DNA from: Spirochaetota bacterium
GTDB lineage: Bacteria > Spirochaetota > Spirochaetia > Treponematales > Rectinemataceae
Reading direction: 5' to 3'
Length of the DNA: 32,621 nucleotides
Assembly (NCBI GenBank): GCA_008080685.1
Contig: VKGY01000003.1
Coordinates: forward strand, 16,037 to 48,657
Shown here: one piece after another, positions 1,431 through 23,618 of the stretch
How the letters are laid out: each line of letters begins with the position of its first letter
Position numbering within the stretch: position 1 is the first letter of the stretch
Program-made: the position numbers and the translations under genes
The notes under the pieces: model-generated
The model's input: only the letters and a program-made list of their open reading frames with translations
The model's database searches: none
Told to the model about the DNA's origin: nothing

Positions 1431-1472
1431 TTTACCATGATTCCAAAATACCATACACTTTGGCATCATGGT
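1431..1472 (+). promoter_or_regulatory. Leaderless-type promoter embedded in a palindrome, AAA_14 ATPase gene 1
   Basis: The arms ACCATGATTCCAAA (1434-1447) and TTTGGCATCATGGT (1459-1472) are complementary at 13 of 14 positions and separated by 11 bases. The right arm contains the ATG of the ATPase gene (1468-1470). A candidate -35 TTTACC (1431-1436) and -10 TACACT (1454-1459) are 17 bp apart, which would place the transcription start on or next to the ATG. No Shine-Dalgarno sequence is present. The arrangement suggests leaderless transcription under a dimeric repressor. The palindrome is seen directly; promoter function is inferred. Confidence 0.5.
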
Positions 1473-2619
1473 ACAAAGAGAACTAGAAGCCGTTCCTCGT
1501 TCGTTCTTTCTCTTCGGTCCCCGTCAGACAGGGAAAAGCACCTGGTTGAACCGCCTTGCGCTAGAAAACACGTGGTTCATAAATTTGTTGGACAGTGAGA
1601 CCTATTTCCGATATCTGCGGGATCCCGGGCAGTTTGGACGGGAGGCGCAGGCCCGGATGCGGCAAGGCGTCGAGTGGGTGATTTTAGACGAGGTGCAGAG
1701 GATTCCCGACCTCCTGAACGAGGTTCAGAACCTACTGGATTCAACTCCCTTGCGATTTATCCTGAGCGGTTCGAGCGCGAGAAAACTGAGGCGTGGTGGT
1801 GCCAATCTCCTGGGCGGCAGGGCTCTTCTCCGGTATTTGCATCCATTTACGGTCAAGGAACTCGGCCTGGACTTCGACCTTGAGAGGGCATTGCGGTTCG
1901 GCACCCTGCCACCCCTTCAGGGGCTTGATATCTCAGAGGCCAGGGACATTCTGCGAAGCTATGTGGAAATCTACCTTCGCGAGGAAATCCAGGCCGAGGG
2001 GCTGGTTCGGAACCTAGGCGGCTTCACCCGATTCCTGGACCTCGCCGCAGCCTACGCGGGAAGCATTCTCAATTATAGTTCCCTCGGCAAGGAGGCGGGA
2101 TTGCCGGTCAAGACTGTGCAGTCGTACTTTGAGGTGCTCGAGGACACGCTCATAGGATTCCGGCTGGATGCGTGGACCCGCAGCCCGCTGAAGCGGCTGG
2201 TGGCGCATCCGAAATTCTACATTTTCGACAATGGTGTCACGAACGCCCTTGCGCGCCGACTCGCGGAGCCTCTCGATCCGGTATCGAGGGGAGGCTTGTT
2301 CGAGCAATTCCTCATTCAGGAGACCCGCCGCCGGTTTGATTACGCCCGTGCCGATGCGCGGTTGTTCTACTGGAGGACCAACAATGGAGCGGAAGTCGAC
2401 CTCGTAATCGAGGTGAATGGTCGGATCGTCTTTGCCGTGGAATTCAAGAGCCGGCCATGGGTCAGCGGCGCCGATCTTTCCGGGCTGCGCTCGTTCCGGG
2501 AGGACTGGCCGGAGGTACCCTGCCTGCTCGTCTGCACCGCACCGGAATCCTTCAACCTTGACTTTGCGGAGGTCCTTCCGTGGCGGGAATACCTGGAGCG
2601 GATTGAAAAACATGGGTAA
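1468..2619 (+). CDS. AAA_14-type ATPase with C-terminal DUF4143 domain (copy 1)
   Basis: The 383-aa protein has Walker A GPRQTGKST at residues 17-25, Walker B WVILDEVQRIPDL near residue 70, a sensor-like LSGSSARKLRRG and the GGRALLRYLHPF segment. These are typical of this STAND/ORC-like ATPase family. The C-terminal DUF4143 part contains YWRTNNGAEVDLVIE followed by VEFKS, a pattern like a PD-(D/E)XK nuclease core. The biochemical role of the family is unknown; members are highly multiplied in some anaerobes. A paralogue at 14419-15564 lies on the other side of the minus-strand defence operon. The start ATG has no ribosome-binding site and lies in a palindrome. The gene is convergent with the helicase gene at 2757-4850. 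Confidence 0.9.
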   Translation: MVQRELEAVPRSFFLFGPRQTGKSTWLNRLALENTWFINLLDSETYFRYLRDPGQFGREAQARMRQGVEWVILDEVQRIPDLLNEVQNLLDSTPLRFILSGSSARKLRRGGANLLGGRALLRYLHPFTVKELGLDFDLERALRFGTLPPLQGLDISEARDILRSYVEIYLREEIQAEGLVRNLGGFTRFLDLAAAYAGSILNYSSLGKEAGLPVKTVQSYFEVLEDTLIGFRLDAWTRSPLKRLVAHPKFYIFDNGVTNALARRLAEPLDPVSRGGLFEQFLIQETRRRFDYARADARLFYWRTNNGAEVDLVIEVNGRIVFAVEFKSRPWVSGADLSGLRSFREDWPEVPCLLVCTAPESFNLDFAEVLPWREYLERIEKHG

Positions 2620-2756: not shown

Positions 2757-4850
2757 TTATGATGAAATCAATAAATCATCCAGGAACTCAGATTTTGGTT
2801 CTACACTTGATATAAGCAGAAAATCTCGAGCACGCGTGCACGCCACATAGAGAAGGTGACGTTCGGTGTCATAAACTTCATGTAAGTCGGATTCATCACT
2901 CACTTGTTCAATCCGTTCCTGCAAGGGAATAACTTCATCATCGCAAGCCATGACTACTACCGCGCGGAACTCGAGGCCCTTGGCTAGGTTCATGGTACCG
3001 ATCGATGTGTATCCACCCATTGTTGCGACGTGTTCATCAAGGATTTTATAGGGCAATTCTGATTTATCTGCAGCTGATCGCGCGCGGTCCACTTGAGCCG
3101 TTGATCTGACGAAAATGCCCATTTCATGAGGACGAAGGCCTTCGGCTTGTCGTTGCGAGAGCCATTCGCCGACGGCCTCGGTTTCTTCACTTTCACTTTT
3201 GAGCGTGATGATTGTCGGAGGGGGTCCATTGAAAACAGAGACTGTATCGTGTCTATCCTCCCGATTGCCGTCGATATCGGTGAGTACAGGATCGAGAAGG
3301 CGGTCAGCTTGGGAACGGATTTGATGGGAAGTACGATAATTGACACGTAAAGTCTTGGAGCGGCCACGAATGTCGACGCCGAGTGATTTCCAGGAAAAAG
3401 GTTGTTGGAATATTCGCTGTCCTTGATCTCCGGCGAAAAAGAGGGTGTTTGGTCTGCCTTTGCCCAAGGCTGCGAGAAATTTTATGTGGGCAATACCAAT
3501 ATCCTGCGCTTCATCAACCACGATATAGTCAAACGGCGCATTTTTTAAGAGAGGGATCGTTTCCGCAAGGCGCGTGAATAGTACAGCCCAGGTTATCTGA
3601 CCTCGGGTTCTCAACCCCTCGCGCACCCTCTCGAAAACTGACCATGCAATAGTTCGCTGGGCTTCCGATATTCGCGTCTTTCTCCCCAAACGGGCGACTT
3701 GTCTGTAGGAATCCCAATCGCGAACTTGCCATGCGTCAACAATCTGCTCCCATTCATCGAGTAGAAAATGCAAACTGAATTTTTGCCCTACCAGCGCCTC
3801 GGAAGCCTCCTTCAGCAAGGTTTTCAATGTTTCCTTATTTACAATCGAGAACTTTCCACAATTCGAGTGAAAAAGACGAGATCCGATGGCGTCAAGAGAA
3901 TAAACATCAATTCTTTCTGCCAGCGATGGTGTGGTGCCGATCAATCGGCGCAGTTTTGTTTTTAACGAGTTGGCCAGCGGATCGGAGAATGTTGTTAAAA
4001 GCACGCGGGATTCGGGATATTTTCTTGCCAAGTAGACAGCCCGATGCAACGCAACGATTGTTTTACCGGTTCCTGCAGAGCCTGATACCCTCGCAGGACC
4101 GGCATAATCGCGTTCAACTATCTGACGCTGTTCGGGATGAAGGAATACAGTCCATTTCTCCCAAGGGTATTCGAGCGCGCGCTGCAATTCTTCCATGTTG
4201 GACATAACGCGGAAACGGCGCTGCGCATCGGGGTGTTCGAAGGGATTGGCTGGAACAATTATAGGTTCCTGAGCGCGAGGTTTCCCTCCCGTGGCCAGTT
4301 CGAGCAGAGCCTCGGAGGCTTCCGCAGGCAGGTGATCCGTTAAAGCCAGTAGAGTCTCTTCCGTTGCCTGTTTGACATCGGCAAGCCATTCTATTGGAAT
4401 TCCGTAGCTTAAGAGGGTTTCCTCGGGTATCTGTGCGAAAAGGGGAGGTCTTACGGTCGGTAAACGGTATTCTTGTTCAGCCTCATGTTTGGAGTGCAAT
4501 GGGACAGGAACATCCTTCGCTATCTCGCGGATCTCGACCAATTGGGCTGCGCCTGTCTTCGGGTGCTTCTCAAGCTTGCGGCGTTCAGCCCAGCTATACG
4601 CCTTGTCATGATGATCGACATAGCAAAGCAAAAGGCTTGATTCACTTTTATGAACAATAATCCGAATGTCAGAGTTCACTCTCACCGACCAAAAATTCTT
4701 GTCTTTTGAATTATCAATTTTGTGAAAGCTCATCCCAGGATAAGCCGGATTGAGTTGCAGGTCAAAAGCAGTAGTCTTGACAGCTTTTTGTTCATCGCCG
4801 GAAAGTCTGGCGAGACTGTCGGTAAAAGTATCGGCGATGAGGAAAGTCAT
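2757..4850 (-). CDS. UvrD/Rep-type superfamily 1 helicase with RelE/ParE-like N-terminal domain
   Basis: This 697-aa protein has two parts. Residues 1-90 resemble a RelE/ParE-type toxin fold: FHKIDNSKDKNFWSVRVN, then RIIVHK, then LLLCYVDHHDKAYSWAERR. From about residue 235 it is a superfamily 1 helicase. It shows the Q-motif-like LHPEQRQIV, Walker A GSAGTGKT (257-264), motif II VVDEAQD (to 450), motif III LFFAGDQGQRIF, motif IV NYRTSHQIR, motif V MNLAKGLEFRAVVV and motif VI LLYVACTRARDF. All core motifs look intact, so an active ATP-driven DNA translocase is expected. The two helicase halves are short compared with UvrD. It is the last gene of the minus-strand operon, 12 bp after the second DUF488 gene, with a weak ribosome-binding site. 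Whether the RelE-like part cleaves RNA or only binds nucleic acid or ribosomes is unknown. Confidence 0.9.
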   Translation of the reverse strand: MTFLIADTFTDSLARLSGDEQKAVKTTAFDLQLNPAYPGMSFHKIDNSKDKNFWSVRVNSDIRIIVHKSESSLLLCYVDHHDKAYSWAERRKLEKHPKTGAAQLVEIREIAKDVPVPLHSKHEAEQEYRLPTVRPPLFAQIPEETLLSYGIPIEWLADVKQATEETLLALTDHLPAEASEALLELATGGKPRAQEPIIVPANPFEHPDAQRRFRVMSNMEELQRALEYPWEKWTVFLHPEQRQIVERDYAGPARVSGSAGTGKTIVALHRAVYLARKYPESRVLLTTFSDPLANSLKTKLRRLIGTTPSLAERIDVYSLDAIGSRLFHSNCGKFSIVNKETLKTLLKEASEALVGQKFSLHFLLDEWEQIVDAWQVRDWDSYRQVARLGRKTRISEAQRTIAWSVFERVREGLRTRGQITWAVLFTRLAETIPLLKNAPFDYIVVDEAQDIGIAHIKFLAALGKGRPNTLFFAGDQGQRIFQQPFSWKSLGVDIRGRSKTLRVNYRTSHQIRSQADRLLDPVLTDIDGNREDRHDTVSVFNGPPPTIITLKSESEETEAVGEWLSQRQAEGLRPHEMGIFVRSTAQVDRARSAADKSELPYKILDEHVATMGGYTSIGTMNLAKGLEFRAVVVMACDDEVIPLQERIEQVSDESDLHEVYDTERHLLYVACTRARDFLLISSVEPKSEFLDDLLISS

Positions 4851-4862
4851 GATTGCCGACCG

Positions 4863-5294
4863 TTATAAATGAATGATTTCAACATTGCCCCATTTACTTC
4901 TAAGGTATTCTGCCACAAGCCGCCTATGGCAATGGGTTGGCTTATCCTCGCTGCACAGGAGGCAGCCGCTATCCAAAATTTCTTTGCTCAGGTGCTCTAT
5001 CTGGCGCGCTTTCATGAGATTTATAAATTTATTTTCGTATTCCGACCACGAACCTCCATTTTTCTTATATCCATCAAGTATATCCTGCGTCGGGGCTAGC
5101 TGTGGCATGTGCAAATATTCAATTCCGCAAATTGTTTTTCCAAAATATTTTAAGTCATCACGCTTGGCGAATCCTGCAAGTTGTGAAACATTGTTGAGTC
5201 GAATATCAATAATGGCCTTTGTTCCTGACTTCTTCAATCTCTCGAAGAAATTCTCAGCGCTTGTCTTTGTAAACCCAATAGTGTACAGCTTCAT
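4863..5294 (-). CDS. DUF488 family protein, short form (copy 2)
   Basis: This 143-aa protein begins KLYTIGFTKTSAENFFERL and has the DUF488 pattern TIGF at the N-terminus, a central IIDIRLNN (Asp-Ile-Arg) and the C-terminal cysteine motif CSEDKPTHCHR. The family is biochemically uncharacterised. The conserved Asp-Arg and Cys-His-Arg residues suggest an enzyme, but I do not assign a reaction. Its start overlaps the stop codon of the preceding DUF488 gene by 4 bp, so the two paralogues are translationally coupled and may work as a pair. It lacks the longer C-terminal extension of copy 1. Confidence 0.85.
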   Translation of the reverse strand: MKLYTIGFTKTSAENFFERLKKSGTKAIIDIRLNNVSQLAGFAKRDDLKYFGKTICGIEYLHMPQLAPTQDILDGYKKNGGSWSEYENKFINLMKARQIEHLSKEILDSGCLLCSEDKPTHCHRRLVAEYLRSKWGNVEIIHL

Positions 5295-5932
5295 TCTGTT
5301 GCTCCCGTGATAGGCAATCCATCATTTATGGGCCACGTGCCTCCATATAGTTCTTCTGCGACAAAGGCTATACGTTCTGATTGTCGAGAATACGCCTCCT
5401 CGATAATCTCCTCGTTTGTACGAAACATATCGTCAAGCTTCAAGTCAAATGTATCGAGAAGACGTTTTGTAGTTTCTTCATACGCCTCAATCGTACCATC
5501 TGCTAATATATGAGAAATCCTAGAACCCCTTTTTACTAGTTCATGAGCGACAAGAATATTTCTATGGCATTCAAGTGGATCCTTTTCCGAGCACATTAGA
5601 GCAACTTTATACTTCAATGCTCCCTCTTCTGCTCTTACAAGCCCTGACTTAAATAGTTTAGTCTTGGCGAGAAGGCCGAATTGAACCTTTCCATTCATAT
5701 AGCATGAAGGATCTTGGCTCCTTGCCCCTAATTCATTCCCAAGGTAGACATAAAGAATTCCTTGTTGCTTTAAACTCTCTTGCAACTGGCTTTTATTGAA
5801 TTGGGGATACAATTTGCTATACGGTGCTGATCGTACATCTGCAACCACTTGTATTTTATTGAGTTTTAATAGATCGACGAATTTTTCTATCGAGTGATTG
5901 GAATGTCCAATAGTAAAAATTTCTCTCTTCAT
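5291..5932 (-). CDS. DUF488 family protein, long form (copy 1)
   Basis: I start the protein at the ATG at 5932 (KREIFTIGHSNHSIEKF), which has an AAGGA four bases upstream; a GTG at 5944 is the alternative. The DUF488 features are TIGHSNHS, VADVRSAPYSK and the cysteine motif CSEKDPLECHR. A C-terminal extension of about 60 residues follows (ADGTIEAYEETTKRLLD onward), rich in charged helices and absent from copy 2. The first 77 bp overlap the 3' end of the upstream OB-fold gene, an unusually long overlap. The family has no established reaction. Recurrence of two different DUF488 genes in one defence operon suggests a heteromeric or two-step activity; this is inference. Confidence 0.85.
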   Translation of the reverse strand: MKREIFTIGHSNHSIEKFVDLLKLNKIQVVADVRSAPYSKLYPQFNKSQLQESLKQQGILYVYLGNELGARSQDPSCYMNGKVQFGLLAKTKLFKSGLVRAEEGALKYKVALMCSEKDPLECHRNILVAHELVKRGSRISHILADGTIEAYEETTKRLLDTFDLKLDDMFRTNEEIIEEAYSRQSERIAFVAEELYGGTWPINDGLPITGATE

Positions 5933-6632
5933 TGTATCCTTCACGTCGATCGGGCGTAATTATCGATGCAGCAAGGCGGAAGGCGTACCCGTTCCAAACT
6001 TCCGCGATACTGATGCACAATAAAGCGTCAGGTATAGAATAATACTGTTCTGACTTTGCAAGGTACATTTCTTCAATTTCCGGATCAGTCACTGATAGTT
6101 CATATTCCAAGTCGTGATATTGGAATTTTGCGCGAACACGTTTTCTGGATGGCCTTCCCTCAAATCCAGGTTCTGACAAAACATGAAGTTTCAACTGGTT
6201 CGGAATGATTAGCTTGAGAGAGCTTTGCATTAAATGCGCTTGAGATTCTGGTATTTTGTCATTGTGGCCATGGAGAGTGTTTTCGCCGCGAGTCCAGAAA
6301 TTTTGATCATATTGATCGACGAGGGATTGGATTTGTTTCCAATTAACTCTTCCTCTTCTCACCCAATAATATTCTTCATCAATTCGATAGTTTTCCGTCT
6401 GATGGTAGTGGGGCTCAGGGTGCTTGAGTGGTATGTCAATAATGTCAAATATTTGTGCCCTCCTGCCGTTTTCATACCTTCTCTCTTCTTCGGATATTTC
6501 TTTGGAACTTCGACTGCTCACGGGTCTTATCCATTGTCCTAGTTTTGAGCCGCTGTACTCTTTCCCTGCGATGCAACGACCAGATGGAGGCTTTCTAGAA
6601 TTAGCCAGACAAACAATGGTCTTTATATGCAT
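5856..6632 (-). CDS. Dual-OB-domain-like putative nucleic-acid-binding protein
   Basis: The 258-aa protein starts HIKTIVCLANSRKPPSGRC, followed by IAGKE and WIRPVS, a beginning I recognise from proteins annotated as dual OB domain-containing. The rest is beta-strand rich, with two similar halves in size (about 1-120 and 130-230), and the second ends with WNGYAFRLAASII. No catalytic motif was seen. OB folds normally bind single-stranded nucleic acid or nucleotides, so a substrate-recognition role for the operon is possible. The ATG at 6632 has a GAGGGGG sequence upstream and lies 9 bp after the mod stop. The last 26 codons overlap the DUF488 copy 1 reading frame. Family naming is from memory of the N-terminal signature, so moderately sure. 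Confidence 0.7.
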   Translation of the reverse strand: MHIKTIVCLANSRKPPSGRCIAGKEYSGSKLGQWIRPVSSRSSKEISEEERRYENGRRAQIFDIIDIPLKHPEPHYHQTENYRIDEEYYWVRRGRVNWKQIQSLVDQYDQNFWTRGENTLHGHNDKIPESQAHLMQSSLKLIIPNQLKLHVLSEPGFEGRPSRKRVRAKFQYHDLEYELSVTDPEIEEMYLAKSEQYYSIPDALLCISIAEVWNGYAFRLAASIITPDRREGYNEERNFYYWTFQSLDRKIRRSIKTQ

Positions 6633-6641
6633 GAATCCCCC

Positions 6642-9419
6642 TCATACCTTGAACACTTTCATGACCTCATCCCCCAAGTGATTTATCACCTTCACCGCGA
6701 TGCGGCCGGTTTTTGGCTTATCAAAGGAGCGCGAAATGTCGCCATGGAGAGTGGACCACGCATCTTCGTCGATTTCGGCCTTGAGCGTGGTTTTTAGGGA
6801 GCTATAGGGATCGTTGGCACCGAGGAAGTAGGCTTGGCGGACGAAGAAGCTTTCTTCATTGTAGTCGGAATCGATGAACCAACAGGCTATTCCGTCGGCG
6901 CTGTCAGAGATGACTTCGCCGGTTTGGGGCTTGAAAACATCGACACCGTTCACTTTCACCTTGATCTTGCCATTGGGCTCGTCGATGAGGTCGATGTCTG
7001 GTTCTCCGAAAATAACGAAAAGGTTGCCTTTGCCCGTATTCTTGAGATCATCTGCCATGTGGAGGTCGGCGTTCATGCGCGCCTTGAGGACGGGTATGCG
7101 CCCAAGCTTATTGAACTCGGTGCTGTGGGCTTCATAATTGAAGGCACAGGCGATGAGCACATCAAAGCCAGCGTCCCCCGCCTCCCGCGCAGCAGCGACG
7201 AGGTCGGCTCTCTGGACGGTACCGAATTCCGGGCCTATGAAAATTGCTGCTCTTTTTTCTATATCACCTTCAAGATAATGTCCTTCCGCGCAGACCATGT
7301 CGCCAGGCCAAGGATATAGCGCGGTGAATGAAATCTTGTCTTCCTTATGGGCTTGCTGGACTCCGGCGATTTTTAGGTTTTCCAGGATCATTTGGGGGAA
7401 AGTCTGGGCAGTGCCATAATTGAAATTTTTTTCGTTTGAAATGTCGATGAGGTCACCATCTTCATCAACGCCAAGCGTGCGATGTGGACTTAAGGATTCA
7501 ACGGTGAATGGCCCGGCCACGCGAACTTTTTTCTTATCATCGTAGGGTTTGTCGTAGAGATATTCATACTCTGCCTTGGCGGCTATGGATGCATCAATAT
7601 CCTTCTGTCTGGTTATTCGGGCTCGCCACCACTCAGCATGTACCGTTTTTATTGATTCAGGCCACGATGCATCCGCCTCTCGCGGAATTTCCCATTCTTC
7701 CCAACGCATGGCGAGAGTTGTATTCAACTTTTCTCGCAGGGGTTCAAGGATCGCTTGCCATTTTTCCCAAATAACATCGATTTCTGCGTTATTGGCGATC
7801 GACTTAAGAGTGATGTGGGGCACCCGTTCATACACAAAACCATGGCGGATGTTGCCATGAACGGCTTGCGAACGTGGCGCGTCACCAGTAATTTCAGCTT
7901 CCTTGAGCTGCCCCTCGCGAGAATCAGCTAGCAAATAGAATGGGTATCGTGCTCCCATTATTCTCGCTCTGGCGAGCGCGAGCGCCACACGCGATGTATC
8001 GATCGTGATCCATCTGCGTCCCCATTGTTCCGCGACATAGGCTGTAGTGCCTGAACCGCAGGTTGGATCGAGGACAAGATCCCCAGGATCGGAGGACATG
8101 AGAATGCAGCGTTGAACGATTTTTATATTTGTCTGGACAATATAGATCTTGTCTGTCATAAAACTACTCACGGCATCTGTCCACAGATTCGGAATTGGCG
8201 ATGCTGGGAAGTCATCAACATATCTGACATACCCTAACCTCGAAGATGTTGCTTCGATACGATTACTCATGTAAAGACGTGTCATCCCTTCGGTTTTTGT
8301 TTTAAATGATCCACCAGGAACAATATATTCTTTGCCATTAAATACATAGCTTTTTGCTCCTGCAGCGCCTTCACCGCTCCGAGTAAGATCACTAAGCGAG
8401 TAAAGCCTTTGATCGGAATTCAACTCCCCGGATTTTTCATTTGAGGACGCAGGCCGCCTATTAAATAATGCGGTTTCGATGCGATTATAGTTTGAAGGGA
8501 TGAATGAGTCGAAGCCTTTTACAGAGAATGCAGGGCGAGACTTAATCCTTTCTAAATTCTTGGCGTACCAAAGAATATAATCAACTACATTATCGATCAC
8601 CTCGGCTCTAGCTCCAGAGGTCTTCTGTACTAATATCATGCTTACAGCATTCTGTTCTCCAAACACTTCATCCATTAGAGCTCGAACTCTGTGTACATTT
8701 TCGTCACCAATTTGCATGAATATCGATCCGGATTCAGTAAGAAGATCCCGTGCAACAGTGAGTCGATCGCGGAGATAGGTCAGGTAGGAGTGGATGCCGT
8801 CGCGCCAGGTGTCGCGAAAGGCTTTTACCTGCTCAGGTTCGCGGGTTATGTGGCCTGCATTCCCATCTTTTACATCGCGGCTTGTGGTGGACCACTGGAA
8901 ATTGGAGTTGAACTTGATGCCGTAGGGCGGGTCCATATAGATGCATTGGACTTGCCCGCGTAAGCCCTCGCGTTCGGCGAGCGATGCCATTACCTGGAGG
9001 GAATCTCCAAGTATCATGCGGTTGGTCCAGTTTTGGTCGTGCTGGTAGAATTCTGTCTTATCCGCATCTTGTGGAATTCCGTTGAAGTCCGAGAAAAGGT
9101 CGAATTCTCCTTGTGGATCGACTGTTGTTCGCCCTTCCTTAGTTCTATGAATCAAATCTTCAATGAGTACCTTTGGGTGCACTTTCTCTTGGATATATAG
9201 GGGCGGGGCTGGTACGACGAGATCGCTCCAGTCTTGCTCATCCTTTCCTCGCCAGACGAGTTGGGGGTCCAGATCGGTATTGCGAGGATACTTGAGAATT
9301 TTCGGCTTAATCTCTTCCTTTTGGATCATAGGTTGATACTCGGCGGTGGGGATATTTCTTCGCTTGTCTACATCATGGCGAATAATCTCTACAGACTTTT
9401 CCTTGTTTACTTTAGCCAC
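6642..9419 (-). CDS. Type III-like Mod: site-specific DNA methyltransferase (beta class)
   Basis: This 925-aa protein has the catalytic motif DPPYGIKF (163-170) ahead of the SAM-binding motif DPTCGSGTT (451-459), the beta-class order seen in type III Mod enzymes, which methylate adenine N6. Between them lies a variable region of about 280 residues that should contain the target-recognition domain. The C-terminal 350 residues are an extension found in large Mod proteins of this kind. The start is GTG at 9419 with a strong GAGGAG six bases upstream. It is translated between the AlbA_2 gene and the OB gene. Together with the Res-like protein at 11208-14276 it should form a restriction-modification pair. 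The middle of the gene (about 8150-8750) is visibly more AT-rich than its two ends. Confidence 0.92.
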   Translation of the reverse strand: MAKVNKEKSVEIIRHDVDKRRNIPTAEYQPMIQKEEIKPKILKYPRNTDLDPQLVWRGKDEQDWSDLVVPAPPLYIQEKVHPKVLIEDLIHRTKEGRTTVDPQGEFDLFSDFNGIPQDADKTEFYQHDQNWTNRMILGDSLQVMASLAEREGLRGQVQCIYMDPPYGIKFNSNFQWSTTSRDVKDGNAGHITREPEQVKAFRDTWRDGIHSYLTYLRDRLTVARDLLTESGSIFMQIGDENVHRVRALMDEVFGEQNAVSMILVQKTSGARAEVIDNVVDYILWYAKNLERIKSRPAFSVKGFDSFIPSNYNRIETALFNRRPASSNEKSGELNSDQRLYSLSDLTRSGEGAAGAKSYVFNGKEYIVPGGSFKTKTEGMTRLYMSNRIEATSSRLGYVRYVDDFPASPIPNLWTDAVSSFMTDKIYIVQTNIKIVQRCILMSSDPGDLVLDPTCGSGTTAYVAEQWGRRWITIDTSRVALALARARIMGARYPFYLLADSREGQLKEAEITGDAPRSQAVHGNIRHGFVYERVPHITLKSIANNAEIDVIWEKWQAILEPLREKLNTTLAMRWEEWEIPREADASWPESIKTVHAEWWRARITRQKDIDASIAAKAEYEYLYDKPYDDKKKVRVAGPFTVESLSPHRTLGVDEDGDLIDISNEKNFNYGTAQTFPQMILENLKIAGVQQAHKEDKISFTALYPWPGDMVCAEGHYLEGDIEKRAAIFIGPEFGTVQRADLVAAAREAGDAGFDVLIACAFNYEAHSTEFNKLGRIPVLKARMNADLHMADDLKNTGKGNLFVIFGEPDIDLIDEPNGKIKVKVNGVDVFKPQTGEVISDSADGIACWFIDSDYNEESFFVRQAYFLGANDPYSSLKTTLKAEIDEDAWSTLHGDISRSFDKPKTGRIAVKVINHLGDEVMKVFKV

Positions 9420-9441
9420 TACAGGCTCCTCGGATCATTGG

Positions 9442-9570
9442 TTGCGAAAAAAATTGTATTAAAAATTGCGTAATTTACATTAAAAAATAGTAAATAAAGC
9501 TTATTCATATAAAGATATAACAATGAAGAATTGCGTAAAATTGCGAAGAATTGCGTAAAATTGCGTAAAA
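9442..9570 (-). repeat. Decamer tandem repeats (TTTTACGCAA) before mod
   Basis: On the minus strand the decamer TTTTACGCAA occurs at 9570-9561, 9560-9551 and 9540-9531, with a variant TTCTTCGCAA at 9550-9541, so four units are exactly in phase. A fifth degenerate unit (TTCTTCATTG) follows at 9530-9521. Two more isolated CGCAA cores lie at 9466-9470 and 9442-9446. The 10-bp period is one DNA helical turn. The array occupies the only real gap inside the operon, between the AlbA_2 stop and the mod start. It may be an operator for repeated binding on one DNA face, or a slippage-prone tract controlling mod expression. Confidence 0.85.
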
Positions 9571-9573
9571 CTA

Positions 9574-11205
9574 TCATTTTACGTCTTTACTGTTAATGTG
9601 CCATCTGGCGGCATTGGTTATACCACGAACTAAGATATGGCCTTCTGTCTCTAAATCTAATAAAAGCGAACGTACGTGATGACGATCAAGTGTTGGAAGT
9701 ACTTGTAGGAGTTCAATCATTTTTGCGCCACTAGGTTCGCTTGATTGAATATGCTTGAGGAGGAGCGCTTTATTGGTCTCTCTATCAAGCCCCTTTTTGC
9801 GTGTATGTATACCTTGTTGCCCAACTGCAGCATAAAGCTTCCTGGAAAGTATCCATGGCCGGCCTTTCAATACGGGCGACCTTTCAAGCAGTCCTAATTC
9901 AAATAGCTTCTTTGTTGAGGCTGAAAATTTGGGTGAGACTGGCCGACCCGAAAATGCTTGCTGGATAACAATGAAATCAGCAGTAGAGAAGCTTACCAAA
10001 TGTTTATTGCCGATTTTTTCCAGCACTCTTAAGAAATTCGGTTCTTTAATAGTTCCGTTCAATGTAATCCAAAAATGATCTTGATCTGTGTGAGCGAAGT
10101 CCGGTTCGCCCTTGCTCTCTCTTATACAAGACTCGAAAATTCGATTCATTCCTTGTCCTGACCGCTCGACAAGGCCGCAACGAGCGAAAGAATCTGCTAA
10201 TCGCCTGTTTCGAGGTAGTTGTTCCCATAAGATGTTTTCCAAAGTGATCCCAGGCATTAACCCGCCTGGATTTACTATTTCTATTCGTTCAGGGAATTGT
10301 CTTATAAAGATCGAAGCTCCCGAGCGATAATCGCGGTGGCTCACTGCATTGAGGATTGCTTCTCGTATAGCTAACTCATTAAAAGTCTTTATATCCAAAA
10401 TAAATAATCCGTCTTGGTAATGCTGGCTCGTGTTTCGCAAATCGATAGTTTCCCATAAGCGATCGTAGAATAAAAAAAACCCTTCTCTATACTCAACACG
10501 TTGTTGGGCAGGCCCAGAAGCATCATTGGGACGGTACTCGAAAATTACTTCGGCTTGGTTTAGGTAATGGCCTAATGCTGCATGAGTTCCAAACAGTATG
10601 AGAGCTGCATTCGTCAGCTTGTTTTTAACCATAAGTTCTGCATCGGCCAATAATTGTTTGTGATTTATTGTTAAAATTGCCTTGTTATTAGTTTTTTTTG
10701 CCCATCTAGAGCGAAATTTTTCGATCGCTTCAATGTTAAGGTCCTCAAAAGAAGCACCCGGGCATACTTCTGCCGTGAAGTCAGGACCGCTTTCATCGAA
10801 GATCCGTTTGATCATATCAGCTGACATTGCTGTCAAAGCTTGACCGGCGCGCATTAGATATCGACCATTCAGGTGGAGGGGCATTCCAATGGGTCTAGAC
10901 GGGATATGGAAAACTAATACACGACCTTCCGGGCAATATATTTCTTCCACATTTATTCTGAGGTGAACTTGAGCGATTAGTTGCTCTTTTATTTTTGCCA
11001 GATCGTCCATATAAGCACGAGTGCCAACTACTTTTCTGGGTTTTTTGTCTGTTACTCCGAGAATAAGCATACCACCCCGCTCATTCGCGAGAGCGATCGA
11101 ATACTCGATTAGCTTATCGGTATCAAAAGAGGACTCCGCTCTTTTGAATTCAATATGTTCATCTTCATTTTTCTGGAGGATAGCAATGATATCCTTAGCT
11201 TGCAT
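9574..11205 (-). CDS. Schlafen-AlbA_2 domain protein with C-terminal HATPase-like and winged-helix parts
   Basis: This 543-aa protein begins with the AlbA_2 (Schlafen core) pattern EDEHIEFKRAESS, ALANERGGMLILGVTDK. The second half carries EAILNAVSHRDYRSGASIF, VNPGGLMPGI and LVERSGQGMNRIFE, the HATPase_c_4-like signature of proteins often called putative transcriptional regulator or RecG-like. The C-terminal 100 residues look like a winged helix (TNKALLLKHIQSSEPSG, MIELLQVLPTLDRHHVRSLL). Eukaryotic and prokaryotic Schlafen-type domains can cut RNA, but activity cannot be judged here. The gene starts two bases after the res stop, with AAAAGGAAC as ribosome-binding site. It sits between res and mod, where simple type III systems have nothing. 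It is AT-richer than res. Confidence 0.88.
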   Translation of the reverse strand: MQAKDIIAILQKNEDEHIEFKRAESSFDTDKLIEYSIALANERGGMLILGVTDKKPRKVVGTRAYMDDLAKIKEQLIAQVHLRINVEEIYCPEGRVLVFHIPSRPIGMPLHLNGRYLMRAGQALTAMSADMIKRIFDESGPDFTAEVCPGASFEDLNIEAIEKFRSRWAKKTNNKAILTINHKQLLADAELMVKNKLTNAALILFGTHAALGHYLNQAEVIFEYRPNDASGPAQQRVEYREGFFLFYDRLWETIDLRNTSQHYQDGLFILDIKTFNELAIREAILNAVSHRDYRSGASIFIRQFPERIEIVNPGGLMPGITLENILWEQLPRNRRLADSFARCGLVERSGQGMNRIFESCIRESKGEPDFAHTDQDHFWITLNGTIKEPNFLRVLEKIGNKHLVSFSTADFIVIQQAFSGRPVSPKFSASTKKLFELGLLERSPVLKGRPWILSRKLYAAVGQQGIHTRKKGLDRETNKALLLKHIQSSEPSGAKMIELLQVLPTLDRHHVRSLLLDLETEGHILVRGITNAARWHINSKDVK

Positions 11206-11207
11206 GC

Positions 11208-14200
11208 CTAGTTCCTTTTCCCACTGCTGATCGACATTTCAATAATATTCGCGAACTCTGTCTCAACGCGCTCCTTAAAGTCCGATTCGATCTGGTATAC
11301 CTCGGTGAACTCTGCGAAAGCCCAACGGCCATAACCGCCCAGGTTGTTTACGCCTGGGATCCAGTAGGTATCCATCGTTGCTTTTTTTTCCTTGGCGTCC
11401 TCGCGGCGGTAGCCCTTTATCTCCACGATGAGGTGGAGGGGATCATCAAAGCCATGCCCATCGTCCACGAGTACGATGAAATCGGGAAGGTAGCGGCGGG
11501 TTTCAGATCCATACCGATAGGGTACTTCAAATCCCAAATTGTGGTTCTTTACATAGGCCAAGACCTTGGGATGGGATTCGGCCACCCTGCAGAATTCCCC
11601 TTCCCACTCCGAATCAAGGATAATCCAGTTTATATGACAATGTCTTGAGCTTGTCTCCCAGCGGTTACTCCTGGAGGTGTTGAAGCGCACGAATTTTGTT
11701 GAACCTGAGGGGTTATAAGGATCAAGGAGGGCTTTGACAGGCCGCTCTTTGATGAATTTCTGTGTGATTGCCGCAGTTATCTTGTTGCAAGCCATATCGG
11801 CGAGTTCAAGATACATAAGTTGGGCCGGATAGGTTTCGCCTACACACACTAGGTAGCTGTCTAGCCATTCCTTGACAATTCGCTTGAGTTGGCCAAATAG
11901 GAAGAGTTTTGGTTCTTCGCCAGGATCCCTGAATTTCGTGTAGAGGAGACGATGTGTCAGTTGGAAGACCAGGGTTGAAGGGCGCATGTCGGCCAGGTGC
12001 TCAAGATTCATATCAACGCCTTCGCCGATTATTCCAGAATTGCGTGTGATAGACGGTCCGACGAGATCCGGGCTCAATCTAAGTATCGAATCCTCATTAA
12101 ATGCTGCGGATAGGCGCTCTTCCGGAAGTTCCACCCGATAGCCTTCTACGCGAGGGAAGCGGATTTCTAGGGCATCTCGGTCGGGACGAACAGCCTTAAC
12201 CAGTATAGTTTGACGTGGGGGCTGAGGTGGAGCAACGACTGGCTTGGCAGTGAAGTCGAAGGGAATTCCGAAGACATCGGCATACTCTACGTTGAAAAGC
12301 CCTTCATCGTTGAGTTCATAGGACTGGCGCCTAAGTGCGCGGCCTATAACCTGCTCGCAGAGGAGTTGAGTACCAAAAGCCCGGATGCCAAGGACATGAG
12401 TCACCGTGTTGGCGTCCCAGCCTTCTGTGAGCATCGATACTGAGACTACGCAGCGGATATTTCCGCCCAACTGACCTGGTTTCCCTACCGTGTTCATGAC
12501 TTCACGCAAGAGGTCCTGGTCGGAAAAACTGTCGGCTGCGCGGAGATCGCCTGTACGTTCGATGATTTCGCGGCGGAACCGGTCGATCTCATCTTTAGCG
12601 ATCTTGCGGAAACCTTCATCCAGGACGTCGCCCGCTTCTAGCTGTTCACTGTCAATGAGAATGGTGTTCGGGCGGGGGAGTGGGTTCCCGGTAGTTTCAT
12701 CAAAATTCCTGAAAAGAGCGAGGCGGCCATTTTCCAAGGTGCTTGTTCCATCATCATTAGCCCTTTGGAATCCCGAAATGTAATCAAACACTAGCTTTGA
12801 GATGGATGTGTTTTGGCAGACAAAAATAAAGCAGGGAGGAACATCGATCCCCTTTTCCTCCCAAAGCTTGAATGTTTTTTCATAGTGTCCATAGAGGGAT
12901 TGGATGGCAGTCTGAAGCCGGGTTGGCAACTTGAGTGGATCTAAATCGCCGCTCTGCCCACGCCCCTTTTTGGGCATGTCGTGTCGAATATTGTCCCAGA
13001 GCTTCCGGAACATTGGCATTTCATCGCCTGGAATATTCTCGGCTATGGGTACACGGGGGAGTTTGACGATTCCGCACTCTATAGCGTCCATGAGGGAGAA
13101 GTCGCTCATAGTCCATGGGAAAAGGGTTCCTTCCGCGTAGCCAGAGCCTTGGAGGAAAAAGGGAGTGGCGGAGAGGTCGAACACCTTGTTGATACCTAGT
13201 TTCTTGCCCACTATTTCAAGGCCGGAAATCCATAGGCGGGCAGCCTCATTGTTTTTTTCAGCCTCTTTTTTCTCATCACCTTTGAGTTTTTCTTCATTTC
13301 CATTTATGGGCTTTTCTCGATAGCAATGGTGGGCTTCGTCATTGATTACTAGGATGTTCCCCAATCCCATGAGGTCGGGCATGACACGCTGGAGCATCTG
13401 GCCTTCTGTCTCGAGGGTATTCAACTCCTCTCCACGGCGCCCCTTGAGTAGAGCACGCCCGCCGGCCGAGAGGTCGACCCGCTCCCTTCGCTTGAAGGCA
13501 TGGTAATTGGTGATGACGATCTTGGCGCGTTTTATATCCTCAAGCATGTCATTGGGAATGAGTTCGCGGCTAGCATAGTAGCTGTCGGGATCGTTGGGCT
13601 TTAAGAGGCGCAAGCGATCTTTGATGGTAAGTCCAGGTGTACAAATGAGAAACCCGCGAGAAAAATTCTTGCTCCCTAGTCTTCGGACGGCGTTCACTGT
13701 CTGCCATGCGATGATCATAGCCATAACAGCGGTTTTTCCCGATCCGGTGGCCATCTTGAAGGCGATCCGTAAAAGTCCGGGATTGGCATCCTTGCTTGCC
13801 CTTGAAAGTAGGTCAAGGATCTGTTTACCCTGCCGATTCTGCGGGGCGACTTCGGTGAGCCAAATTGCGGTTTCTGCCGCTTCAATCTGGCAGAAAAATG
13901 GACGGATGCCGACAAATCGATGATTACGCCAATGTTTAAGGAGGCGCGCTGTTTCTGACGTCACCTGCCAGTTAGCCTCCGGGAGGGCGCGCCATTCAGC
14001 AACGTATCCGCGGACTTCATTGATAACCGATGTTGGATCATACTGCTGCTCTTTGGTTGAAAGACCCCTTCCCTCATCGAAGATGATTTCCTGCTGTGCT
14101 GCTGCATCCTTGTGCTTTTTGGGTTTGGGAATCGGCGTGAAGAAATCCGCTCTCCGACGCTTCTCAAGGATGCGCTGGGTTGGCTGACCTTCGCTATCCA

Positions 14201-14276
14201 GTTCCCAATGCTTTTGGGGACACGCATACGGTGAATTCAATATGGGATGATCGAAGAATGGGTTGGTAAGGCTAAT
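11208..14276 (-). CDS. Res-like DEAD/DEAH helicase with C-terminal PD-(D/E)XK nuclease (type III-like restriction subunit)
   Basis: Counting from the TTG at 14240, Walker A is ATGSGKT (165-171) and the DEAH-type box is VINDEAHH (298-305). They are followed by SATPFFLQGSGYAEG, SVSMLTEGWDANTVTHV and CEQVIGRALRR, the superfamily 2 motifs of Res subunits. Near the C-terminus, RYLPDFIVLVDD followed by LIVEIKGYRRED fits a PD-(D/E)XK nuclease. It resembles the large restriction proteins named after BPTD_3080. I place the start upstream of the TTG because the frame is open and encodes NPFFDHPILNSPY, which I know as the usual beginning of this family. The only start with a good ribosome-binding site (AAAGAGG, six bases away) is an ATT at 14276. 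TTG at 14240 is the conventional alternative. First gene of the minus-strand operon. Confidence 0.92.
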   Translation of the reverse strand: MSLTNPFFDHPILNSPYACPQKHWELDSEGQPTQRILEKRRRADFFTPIPKPKKHKDAAAQQEIIFDEGRGLSTKEQQYDPTSVINEVRGYVAEWRALPEANWQVTSETARLLKHWRNHRFVGIRPFFCQIEAAETAIWLTEVAPQNRQGKQILDLLSRASKDANPGLLRIAFKMATGSGKTAVMAMIIAWQTVNAVRRLGSKNFSRGFLICTPGLTIKDRLRLLKPNDPDSYYASRELIPNDMLEDIKRAKIVITNYHAFKRRERVDLSAGGRALLKGRRGEELNTLETEGQMLQRVMPDLMGLGNILVINDEAHHCYREKPINGNEEKLKGDEKKEAEKNNEAARLWISGLEIVGKKLGINKVFDLSATPFFLQGSGYAEGTLFPWTMSDFSLMDAIECGIVKLPRVPIAENIPGDEMPMFRKLWDNIRHDMPKKGRGQSGDLDPLKLPTRLQTAIQSLYGHYEKTFKLWEEKGIDVPPCFIFVCQNTSISKLVFDYISGFQRANDDGTSTLENGRLALFRNFDETTGNPLPRPNTILIDSEQLEAGDVLDEGFRKIAKDEIDRFRREIIERTGDLRAADSFSDQDLLREVMNTVGKPGQLGGNIRCVVSVSMLTEGWDANTVTHVLGIRAFGTQLLCEQVIGRALRRQSYELNDEGLFNVEYADVFGIPFDFTAKPVVAPPQPPRQTILVKAVRPDRDALEIRFPRVEGYRVELPEERLSAAFNEDSILRLSPDLVGPSITRNSGIIGEGVDMNLEHLADMRPSTLVFQLTHRLLYTKFRDPGEEPKLFLFGQLKRIVKEWLDSYLVCVGETYPAQLMYLELADMACNKITAAITQKFIKERPVKALLDPYNPSGSTKFVRFNTSRSNRWETSSRHCHINWIILDSEWEGEFCRVAESHPKVLAYVKNHNLGFEVPYRYGSETRRYLPDFIVLVDDGHGFDDPLHLIVEIKGYRREDAKEKKATMDTYWIPGVNNLGGYGRWAFAEFTEVYQIESDFKERVETEFANIIEMSISSGKRN

Positions 14277-14418: not shown

Positions 14419-15564
14419 ATGATTGACCGAACCTTGGTTCCTTTGATTGTCCAGGCCATGGCGAAGAATCCGGTGGTAGCCTTGGTGGGTTCTCGGCAGG
14501 TTGGCAAGACAACTCTCGCCAAGGTCATCGCCTCCATGGACAGCCGTTCGCTGTATCTCGACCTCGAGATTCCTTCCGATGTGAACAAGTTCAGGGATGC
14601 GGAGCTATACCTCAAGGAGCAACAGGATCGGCTTGTGATCATCGATGAGGTGCAGCGTATGCCGGAATTGTTTTCCTTGCTACGCGCCTTGGTGGATCGG
14701 GACCGGCGGCCCGGCCGCTTTCTACTCCTTGGGTCCTCTTCTCCCGGCCTGATGCGAGGCAGTTCCGAAAGCCTGGCTGGGCGGATCCGCTATTTTGAGC
14801 TTCCTCCGTTTTGCATGGAGGAGGTGGGAGTGGAAGAATTCCGATCCCTTTGGCTGCGGGGCGGCTATCCGCCGAGTTTTCTTGCTGAAGGTGAGGCCGA
14901 AAGCATGGACTGGCGCCGATCCTTCATCGCCACATACTTGGAGCGGGACATCCCGCAGTTGGGCCTCCGGGTGCCCGCAAGCCAGCTCAGGCGGTTTTGG
15001 ATAATGCTGGCCCATCTGCATGGCCAACTGTGGAACGCAAGCCGCATCGCCGCCAGCATGGAGCTTTCGGCGCCGACCATCCAACGCTACCTCGACATAC
15101 TTGAAGACACCTTCATCATCCGACAGCTTCGGCCTTACCTGGCCAACGTGGGGAAGCGGCTCATCAAGTCTCCGAAAGTCTATGTGCGCGATTCCGGCAT
15201 GGTCCATGCTCTTTTAGGCATTGAGACTGCCGAGGATCTGGCTGCCCATCCCGGGATGGGTGCATCGTGGGAAGGTTTTGTCATCGCCCAGGTTCTTGCG
15301 GCTATGCCCGAAGGGTGGCAGGCGTACTACTACAGGACTAGCGCCGGCGCGGAAATCGATCTGGTCCTGGTGGATCAAAGGCAGAGGGTGACTGCGGTGG
15401 AAATCAAGTATGTATCGGCGCCCCAGCCTCCGAAAGGTTTTTTGATTGCCTGTGGCGATCTTGGCTGCGAACGGCGCTTCATCATCTATCCCGGCGGGGA
15501 ACGATACCCCTTGTCCGGAGGTTGTACCGCTCTTCCTATCAAGGAAGCAGTCGAGCTTTTCTGA
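14419..15564 (+). CDS. AAA_14-type ATPase with C-terminal DUF4143 domain (copy 2)
   Basis: This 381-aa protein shows Walker A GSRQVGKTT (24-32), Walker B LVIIDEVQRMPEL (about 71-83), the sensor-like LLGSSSPGLMRGSSESLAGR and the DUF4143 C-terminus with YYYRTSAGAEIDLVLV and VEIKY. It is a distant paralogue of the protein at 1468-2619 rather than a recent duplicate; identity is confined to motifs. It is divergently arranged to res, with about 140 bp between the two starts. Initiation is probably leaderless, since no ribosome-binding site precedes the ATG other than the GG of the palindrome arm. The function of the family is unknown; it contains an NTPase and a nuclease-like fold. Confidence 0.9.
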   Translation: MIDRTLVPLIVQAMAKNPVVALVGSRQVGKTTLAKVIASMDSRSLYLDLEIPSDVNKFRDAELYLKEQQDRLVIIDEVQRMPELFSLLRALVDRDRRPGRFLLLGSSSPGLMRGSSESLAGRIRYFELPPFCMEEVGVEEFRSLWLRGGYPPSFLAEGEAESMDWRRSFIATYLERDIPQLGLRVPASQLRRFWIMLAHLHGQLWNASRIAASMELSAPTIQRYLDILEDTFIIRQLRPYLANVGKRLIKSPKVYVRDSGMVHALLGIETAEDLAAHPGMGASWEGFVIAQVLAAMPEGWQAYYYRTSAGAEIDLVLVDQRQRVTAVEIKYVSAPQPPKGFLIACGDLGCERRFIIYPGGERYPLSGGCTALPIKEAVELF

Positions 15565-21326: not shown

Positions 21327-23618
21327 GTGAACCGCTGGAAAGTAAAAAACCCCCGCAAGGACCTGAGCTTCGAAATCGCCTTCACCAAGGCCTTCAGGGA
21401 GGCGAAGCGGAACCACAGCCACCCTGCGCGGATCGAGCTTGAGTGCCTCAAGGCCCAGTATCCGGCCATCCTCATGCCCATAGAGGACGAGGACGTCCTG
21501 GCGGGGCGGATCCAGTTCGGCCTCATCGGCTACGGCATCCAGGGACAGACCGGCGGCACGGGCTACTACATAGACGAACCCCGGGTGACCGAAGCCCTGG
21601 AGTTCCAGGCGGGAAACGCCAAGTACCGCGAGGACCTCCACGACCTCCTCACCTTCTGGAAAGCCCGTAACACCTACGAAATAGTATTCAGGAACACCCC
21701 GGAGGACATACGGGCGGTCATCCCCACGGAGCAGTGGAAGACCCAGCCCGTTCCCGCCTCCCCCATAATCCGCATGGCCGGGGCCTACATAGACTTCGAC
21801 AAGCTGGTGAGGATAGGAATTCCGGGCTTAGAAAAGGAAATCCGGGACGAACTGGAGGCCGCGCGGGCAGCGCCTAGCGCGCGGGCAGCGCCGGCTGCGC
21901 CCGGCGAAGGTAAGGACCCCGTCATCTACGAGTGCATGCTGGGAAGCCTTGAGGTCCTCAAGGACTGCTGCAGGCACTACATCCCCGAGGCGCAGGAGAA
22001 GGCCAGGACGGCGGCTTCCGAAGGGCGCCGGAAGGAAATGGCGGACCTTGCGGAAGCCCTGGGCAAGATCGTCGACCATGCGCCCACGACCATGCTGGAA
22101 GGCCTCCAGCTCTGCTGGCTCTACGCCATGATGTGCCCCCTCATAGAGTTCGGCCGGCTGGACGAGTACATAGGCGACCTCTACGTCCGCGACCTGGACT
22201 CAGGCAAGATCGGAGAGGCCCAGGCCCTCAAGATGGTCCAGAGCTACTTCCGCCTCATAGACAGCCTGGACTGCGAGACCGACGGACGGGTCATCGTGGG
22301 CGGCTATGGACGCCGGAACCCGGAAAACGCCGACCGCTTCTGCCTCGTGGCCTGCGAAGCCTGCAGGACGGTGAGGGAAATACTCCCCCAGTTTACCTTG
22401 CGCTTCACCTCCTCCACCCCCAAGGCAGTGTGGGAAAGCGCCATGCGCTGCATAGGCGAGGGAAGGACCTTCCCCCTTTTGTACAACGACGAAGTCCTGG
22501 TGCCGGGCCTTATGAAGGCCTTCGACGTGGACAGGGCCAGGGCCGAGACCTACATGCCCCTGGGCTGCGGGGAAATCGAATTCGACCACTACAGCTTCGG
22601 CTCGCCCAACGGCTCCATAGGAACCTTGAAGATCCTGGAGCTCGCCCTCCGCTGCGGCCTCGATCCAGTCTCGGACCGCTATCTCTCCTTCAAGACCAAG
22701 GGCCTCGGGGACTGCGCCACCTACGAAGAGTTCGTGGAAGTCTACAAGTCCCACCTAAGGCGCTTCATTGAAGCCCAGGCCAAGTATGAGGTGTACCTCT
22801 ACGACGCCATCGGCAAGATCCATCCCTTCATGATGGTGACTATGCTCTACGACGGCGCCATACAAAAGGGAAAGGGCATCTTCGCGGGAGGCTGCGAGTA
22901 CCTGGCGGGGACTGTGGAGCTCTACGGCAACGTGGACGCGGCCAACAGCCTGGCGGCGATCAAAAAGCTGGTCTTCGAAGATAAGAAGCTTACGCCCGAC
23001 CAGCTGGTCACCGCCCTGGACAATAACTTCGTGGGCTATGAAAAAGAGCGGAAAATGATGATGGACGTTCCCAAGTACGGCAACGACGAAGCCTACGTGG
23101 ACGACATCATGGCCGACCTGCACAACTACCTCTGCGAAACCATCAAGGAACAGGGTCCCAAGGTGGGCTTGAAGAGCTACCTCTGCGTAAACATCAACAA
23201 CGCCCAGAACACCACCCTGGGTCGCTGGGTGGGAGCCACCCCGGACGGCAGGAAGGCCGGAACCCCCATGTCCAACGCCAACAGCCCCGCCTCCGGCACG
23301 GACAAGCGCGGCCTTACCGCCATGCTCAACTCCATAGTCAAGCTTTCCCACGACAACCACGCGGGCATGGTGCAGAACATGCGCTTCACCAAGGACACCT
23401 GGGACAATCCCAAGACCAGGCTGTTGATCGAGGATTACTTCAGCCGGGGCGGAGCCCACGCCATGATCACTGTGGTGGGAAAGCAGGACCTGGCCAACGC
23501 CATGGAGCGGCCTGAGGAATACAGGGATCTCATCGTGAGGATAGGGGGCTTAAGCGCCCGGTACGTCCTCCTCAAGAAGGACGTGCAGCAGGAGATCTAC
23601 AACCGTGTCAGCTACTGA
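21327..23618 (+). CDS. Glycyl radical enzyme, pyruvate formate-lyase family, substrate unknown
   Basis: This 763-aa protein has the expected family length. The glycyl radical loop near the C-terminus is VRIGGLSARYV, a variant of RVxGY with the radical on Gly741. The active-site loop is MPLGCGEIEF: Cys414 would form the thiyl radical and Glu416 the general base, as in the GCVE loop of glycyl radical dehydratases and lyases, but with Gly415 in the middle. True pyruvate formate-lyase has two adjacent cysteines, so that reaction is excluded. Residues about 178-192 are a low-complexity Ala-Pro insertion encoded by an 18-bp tandem duplication (21861-21896). The start is GTG with AGGAG six bases upstream. 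The next gene encodes its activase. The sugar importer and glycosidase suggest a carbohydrate-derived substrate. Confidence 0.92.
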   Translation: MNRWKVKNPRKDLSFEIAFTKAFREAKRNHSHPARIELECLKAQYPAILMPIEDEDVLAGRIQFGLIGYGIQGQTGGTGYYIDEPRVTEALEFQAGNAKYREDLHDLLTFWKARNTYEIVFRNTPEDIRAVIPTEQWKTQPVPASPIIRMAGAYIDFDKLVRIGIPGLEKEIRDELEAARAAPSARAAPAAPGEGKDPVIYECMLGSLEVLKDCCRHYIPEAQEKARTAASEGRRKEMADLAEALGKIVDHAPTTMLEGLQLCWLYAMMCPLIEFGRLDEYIGDLYVRDLDSGKIGEAQALKMVQSYFRLIDSLDCETDGRVIVGGYGRRNPENADRFCLVACEACRTVREILPQFTLRFTSSTPKAVWESAMRCIGEGRTFPLLYNDEVLVPGLMKAFDVDRARAETYMPLGCGEIEFDHYSFGSPNGSIGTLKILELALRCGLDPVSDRYLSFKTKGLGDCATYEEFVEVYKSHLRRFIEAQAKYEVYLYDAIGKIHPFMMVTMLYDGAIQKGKGIFAGGCEYLAGTVELYGNVDAANSLAAIKKLVFEDKKLTPDQLVTALDNNFVGYEKERKMMMDVPKYGNDEAYVDDIMADLHNYLCETIKEQGPKVGLKSYLCVNINNAQNTTLGRWVGATPDGRKAGTPMSNANSPASGTDKRGLTAMLNSIVKLSHDNHAGMVQNMRFTKDTWDNPKTRLLIEDYFSRGGAHAMITVVGKQDLANAMERPEEYRDLIVRIGGLSARYVLLKKDVQQEIYNRVSY

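Follow-up and report, generated by a model that had tools for sequence, protein, structure and literature searches.

Operon layout

The window, as we call the whole stretch of 32,621 nucleotides analysed here, carries between positions 2757 and 14276 seven genes that, as an earlier note on this DNA had stated, all lie on one strand, which is the minus strand. They are given below in the direction of reading, together with a variable zone inside one of them.

11208..14276, minus strand: Res (core gene 1), BPTD_3080-family helicase-nuclease (NF046055, 1342 bits)
9574..11205, minus strand: slot-1 cargo, protein with SLFN_AlbA_2 and HATPase_c_4 (RecG C-terminal-like) domains (PF04326, 7.8e-16; PF13749, 1e-18)
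6642..9419, minus strand: Mod (core gene 2), type III-like N6/N4 DNA methyltransferase (PF01555; PADLOC MTase_III PDLC03632, 1415 bits)
8154..8654, minus strand: exchange zone inside Mod, putative target-recognition domain, about residues 256-422 (DNA homology break against the relative G012; 42.3% GC)
5856..6632, minus strand: slot-2 gene A, DuOB (dual OB domain), PDC-M45A (PF22557, 2.7e-67; PDLC04653, 2.3e-85)
5291..5944, minus strand: slot-2 gene B, DUF488 with CSE...CHR motif, PDC-M45B (PF04343, 1.2e-22; PDLC04657, 1.8e-82)
4863..5294, minus strand: slot-2 gene C, DUF488 with CSE...CHR motif, PDC-M45C (PF04343, 1.9e-24; PDLC04658, 7.4e-73)
2757..4850, minus strand: ArmD-like RelE-UvrD helicase (core gene 3) (PF00580/PF13361; RelE fold by structure)

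The junctions were also as previously described, with gaps of 2 bp (Res/Schlafen-type gene), 154 bp (Schlafen-type gene/Mod) and 9 bp (Mod/DuOB), overlaps of 77 bp (DuOB/DUF488) and 4 bp (DUF488/DUF488), and a gap of 12 bp (DUF488/helicase). The 77-bp overlap applies with the ATG at 5932 as start codon and becomes 89 bp with the GTG at 5944. GC contents agreed with the statement that the genes in the middle of the operon are richer in AT than res and the ends of mod: values were 51.3% for Res, 49.2% and 50.9% for the two ends of Mod and 49.1% for the helicase gene, against 42.5% for the Schlafen-type gene, 41.7% for DuOB, 39.8% and 41.0% for the two DUF488 genes and 42.3% for the middle of Mod. 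Promoter and terminator counts were no different from those in shuffled sequence.

An ATT codon preceded by AAAGAGG forms the upper end of the operon (14276), and the first standard start codon of Res is the TTG at 14240. In relatives the Res gene begins at the same position, the codon being ATG, GTG or TTG in 103 of 108, and the Res of G012, a genome of the same family as that of the window, likewise appears to begin at ATT behind AAAGAGG. The shared starting point makes the rare ATT plausible, and Res probably starts there; such a codon might limit how much nuclease is made.

Res, Mod and the RelE-UvrD helicase

Res contains TGSGKT at residue 165, DEAH at 301, SATP at 357 and PD...EIK at 919-942, and its nuclease residues D920, E940 and K942 were invariant in the Res alignment (A2). 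Together with the matches to ResIII (6.3e-9) and NF046055, these motifs identify an SF2 helicase with a C-terminal PD-(D/E)XK nuclease; the RE_endonuc match was sub-threshold. Mod has DPPY at 163 ahead of DPTCGSGT at 451, and this beta order, with PF01555 and the MTase_III score, places it among the beta-class N6/N4 methyltransferases. The two proteins carry the motifs expected of a system that methylates self and cuts unmethylated DNA.

In type III restriction-modification, cleavage needs two inversely oriented unmethylated sites, and the complex is Res1Mod2. The pair in the window resembles EcoP1I and EcoP15I: its Mod has the beta order and a variable zone in the centre, and its Res is a helicase with a C-terminal PD-(D/E)XK domain. 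It differs in having a third core gene and cargo slots, and in a Res that matches the general type III models weakly (PADLOC E 5e-5). Judged by its sequence, the operon belongs to a type III-like system whose third gene is ArmD-like.

This third gene encodes an SF1 helicase of UvrD type with Walker A K263 and Walker B D446, and a RelE domain at residues 1-110. The first 110 residues gave no Pfam match above cut-off (PF05015 HigB-like, 2e-4), and a sequence search of the PDB with the RelE profile was suggestive at most. The predicted model of this part (pLDDT 90) matched the RelE, YoeB and YafQ toxins in the PDB with probability 1.00 and a target TM-score of up to 0.77, and on the strength of this structural match the earlier label of a RelE-helicase fusion is right.

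The protein has the make-up of ArmD in ARMADA type II, a UvrD helicase with an N-terminal RelE domain, and K263 and D446 align with K266 and D454 of ArmD, so that both Walker residues are kept. ArmD deletion abolished ARMADA II defence, as did the Walker A change K266A, and D454N reduced it (PMC12458937). The window helicase is a homologue of ArmD, its closest tested relative, and is about 32% identical to the E. coli protein. In both systems a RelE-UvrD third gene is paired with a DNA methyltransferase and an SF2 helicase; the partners differ, being here a type III-like Mod and a BPTD_3080 Res nuclease, and none of the seven genes matched ArmA (BrxHII-like), ArmB (PglX-like) or ArmC (YprA-like). 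This links a type of helicase that is essential in ARMADA with a type III-like system of wide distribution. Yet another combination of partners, the third, was seen in Qipengyuania (L163:11191-19757), where an ArmD-like RelE-UvrD gene adjoins those of a DUF4011 protein and a TM0106-type nuclease.

A conserved three-gene core

With the Res alignment as query, a scan in which each species was represented by one genome returned at least 80 loci, which are nearest relatives and not an even sample, lie in many cases on MAG contigs and had their ORFs called simply; a scan of IMG/VR with the same alignment gave 34 loci. Among the matches listed, 51 genome loci extended 6 kb or more past Res, and in all of them Mod followed on the same strand; 39 extended 5.5 kb or more past Mod, and in 32 of these a RelE-UvrD gene lay downstream of Mod on the same strand. 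In the remaining 7 of these 39 listed loci the helicase was undetected, and in some it may sit beyond the fetched stretch. The complete Res-Mod-helicase core occurred in at least 48 of the sampled loci, which span at least 11 phyla. The RelE-helicase, which the earlier note had listed among five genes outside canonical type III systems, is part of the core. Plasmid loci of Pseudomonas hold Res, Mod and RelE-UvrD together with no genes between them, and plasmid cores of Gemmobacter, Sphingomonas and Rhizobium have other genes at the same two places. Pairwise divergence was correlated between Res and UvrD with r = 0.91 and between Res and Mod with 0.78, the lower value being explained by the variable zone of Mod. 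By order, conservation and co-divergence, Res, Mod and RelE/UvrD form a conserved core.

Two slots and their cargo

The slots have fixed places. Slot 1 separates Res from Mod and measures 0-4.1 kb, and slot 2 separates Mod from the helicase gene and measures 0-5.4 kb; the genes in them run in the operon direction with junctions of typically -4 to +10 bp. Both slots were filled in 25 of the 48 cores among the matches listed, slot 2 only in 12, slot 1 only in 2, and both were empty in 9. Slot-1 families comprise HATPase_c_4/SLFN, Bro-N, SoFic, GmrSD, DUF4062, 23S IVP, PIN, HepT and NYN, and slot-2 families OLD-like ATPases, DUF4276, SIR2, ThsB TIR, RhuM, HerA and HEC-01; the cargo matches several PDC and HEC families. 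In slot 1, the Schlafen type of the window occurred most often (9 of the 91 loci among the matches listed). From these two exact genomic positions, defence genes without assigned function can be read in many phyla.

The anticodon nuclease PrrC inside EcoprrI provides a model for guarded cargo, in which toxic effectors, silenced by the Res/Mod complex or through its expression, would be freed when a phage blocks restriction. The placement of the slots within the operon and the many toxin-like families found there (SoFic, PIN, HepT, BrnT, SIR2, TIR) would suit such an arrangement, but several cargo types, PDC-M45 included, also occur without any Res/Mod to guard them, and the cargo is too diverse for a single protein contact. 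We consider guarding an unlikely account of the slots.

Cargo GC was below that of the core in 20 of 25 slot-1 cases and 34 of 37 slot-2 cases among the matches listed, and the Mod zone was GC-poorer than the core in all 48 listed loci. On the Res tree, label changes numbered 10 for slot 2 filled or empty (10.2 when shuffled), 8 for the Schlafen type (8.8 when shuffled) and 23 for slot 1 filled or empty (28.5 when shuffled; weak clustering, a value this low having come up in 6 of 300 shuffles). The agreement of slot contents with the Res tree was at best slightly above that of shuffled labels. Both this near-random scatter and the lower GC speak for selfish passengers, to which the slots would offer low-harm insertion places in a transcript that is already on, the position itself bringing no benefit. 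That the contents are recognised defence-type families and not random genes, and that the same two places are used across many phyla, speaks against it, and we give this explanation a low probability.

A slot-2 cassette of three genes (about 258, 182 and 145 aa) was seen in loci of different origins (L047:17493-19196, L058:18793-20442, L075:16978-18672 and L126:15896-17572). The L047 trio had no Pfam match and is a candidate for defence; the idea that these trios are distant forms of PDC-M45 was rejected at an hhalign probability below 1%.

Exchange between close relatives

The Res, Mod and UvrD proteins of G012 are 92%, 81% and 83% identical to those of the window, the last value being measured over 482 residues up to a contig end. 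In slot 1, G012 has a DUF4062/HATPase_c_4 protein, and in slot 2 an AAA/OLD-like ATPase. DNA homology between the two operons stops 31 bp before the Res stop codon and restarts 11 bp before Mod, is broken inside Mod from +763 to +1266, stops again 2 bp before the Mod stop codon and restarts exactly at the UvrD start.

The same Mod break, with slots exchanged or emptied, was found in the pairs L129/L135, L131/L132, L130/L133, L046/L047, L048/L051 and L106/L143; outside the Mod zone and slot 2, the DNA of L129 and L135 is 96-98% identical throughout the operon and on either side of it. Among the matches listed, 91 pairs had Res proteins at least 78% identical, and slot 1 differed in 62 of them and slot 2 in 88. 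The operon has three exchange zones, namely slot 1, slot 2 and the putative target-recognition zone of Mod. The AT-rich modules that the earlier note saw as additions correspond to exchangeable cargo, the Schlafen-type gene and the DuOB/DUF488 trio. The value of embedding can be tested on natural operons that are matched in all but their cargo and the specificity zone of Mod.

The PDC-M45 cassette

The slot-2 trio of the window matched M45A, M45B and M45C together, in that order and strongly (2.3e-85, 1.8e-82 and 7.4e-73), and on these profile matches it is an additional member of PDC-M45. No experiment on PDC-M45, which is a computational candidate, was found in the literature searched. The DuOB alignment was too divergent for a genome scan, and a scan of viral contigs with DuOB gave no matches. 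Neither DuOB nor DUF488 had a meaningful match in PDB sequence searches. Folded alone, DuOB gave an unusable model (pLDDT 33), and its fold is therefore stated as Pfam's alone. The CSE...CHR motif is retained in both DUF488 proteins across relatives.

DuOB/DUF488 genes beside the Mod-Res pair, the co-occurrence suggested earlier as a check, were seen at the window alone and at none of about 90 other Res loci among the matches listed; for these genes, this is the outcome that the earlier note had named as refuting its reading. PDC-M45 cassettes without Res/Mod were found at seven plasmid loci and four loci of the same phylum, where DuOB occurs in 6 of 393 genomes; the four same-phylum DuOB stretches read outside the window contained neither Res nor Mod. 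The other copies found are free-standing, whereas that of the window lies inside an operon, with mod on one side and the helicase gene on the other. In the plasmid copies, the genes after DuOB are two DUF488 or, as a further difference, DUF488 and DUF4326, and the cassettes have CBASS or type III CRISPR genes as neighbours or are carried by small plasmids. The DuOB, DUF488 and DUF4326 form was seen on Acinetobacter and enterobacterial plasmids (L006, L007, L008, L009), and one same-phylum contig (L173, G174, about 7800-12900) carries the DuOB-DUF488-DUF488 cassette twice in tandem, and in the first copy the DuOB gene is broken.

A published family analysis reportedly suggests a nucleic-acid or DNA-end activity for PDC-M45, and Burroughs and Aravind are said to have treated the DUF488/DUF4326 clade in 2023. 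From these families, the role of PDC-M45 is likely that of a DNA-end or nucleic-acid modifying defence.

These occurrences bear on the proposal of the earlier note that tight coupling reflects one seven-gene machine, in which Mod marks self and the OB, DUF488, helicase and Schlafen proteins jointly sense or destroy invading nucleic acid. The shared strand, the overlaps and the short gaps favour it. The nearest relative, however, has replaced its cargo while keeping a core that is 81-92% identical, DuOB is missing from all other Res loci among the matches listed, DuOB/DUF488 stand alone elsewhere, and at least 9 loci have a bare three-gene core. The one-machine reading is largely contradicted by these comparative data, and we regard it as very improbable. 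What stands of the composite operon is a set of defence genes tightly coupled around a type III-like Mod-Res pair, without the union of the five extra genes into one machine.

Proposed reading of the operon

We favour, with a probability of roughly 0.8, a restriction core that depends on modification, has an ArmD-like motor and carries, in its two slots, independent and exchangeable second-line defences. The three-gene core would be made and inherited as a unit. Mod would methylate host sites, and Res would translocate on unmethylated invading DNA and cut it with the PD-(D/E)XK domain; the UvrD motor would act on DNA ends or stalled intermediates, and the RelE domain may have mRNA at ribosomes as its target, possibly cutting it. 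The cargo may be swapped by homologous recombination through the conserved core genes that flank each slot. In the window, DuOB would bind nucleic acid on which the two Cys-containing DUF488 enzymes act. The cargo shares the reading direction and junctions of the operon but probably not its mechanism. Against this favoured reading, the tight junctions would also suit functional coupling, and slot-1 occupancy is partly clustered on the Res tree.

No description of the Res-Mod-ArmD core or of the two-slot layout was found in the literature searched, and priority is uncertain since key preprints lay outside that search. That the core is an undescribed defence platform, with dedicated slots whose contents are second-line effectors tied to the state of the core, is a doubtful extension of the favoured reading; if true, phages that block restriction would face a different weapon in each strain. 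Guilt-by-embedding defence candidates were reportedly the subject of a 2024 preprint by Payne et al., which PMC12988326 cites. That defence genes can be embedded in defence systems is an established idea, and the PDC candidates of PADLOC were derived from guilt-by-embedding (PMC12988326). The present case is like such candidates in that defence genes lie within another defence system, and it adds two exact slots, a third exchange zone inside Mod and matched swaps in near-identical operons.

Surroundings of the operon

Two genes for DUF4143 AAA ATPases (PADLOC PDC-S01) flank the operon on the opposite, plus strand (window 1468-2619 and 14419-15564). Their protein identity of 33%, without a DNA repeat, led us to reject a duplication bracketing the operon. 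A second Schlafen/HATPase-like stretch, 24% identical, lies a few kb past the window on the same contig (L184:12122-13783, G000 contig 189). Further along the window, on the plus strand at 21327-23618, a glycyl radical enzyme (PFL-like) is encoded near sugar ABC transporter genes and an AraC-type regulator, a group that represents ordinary metabolism.
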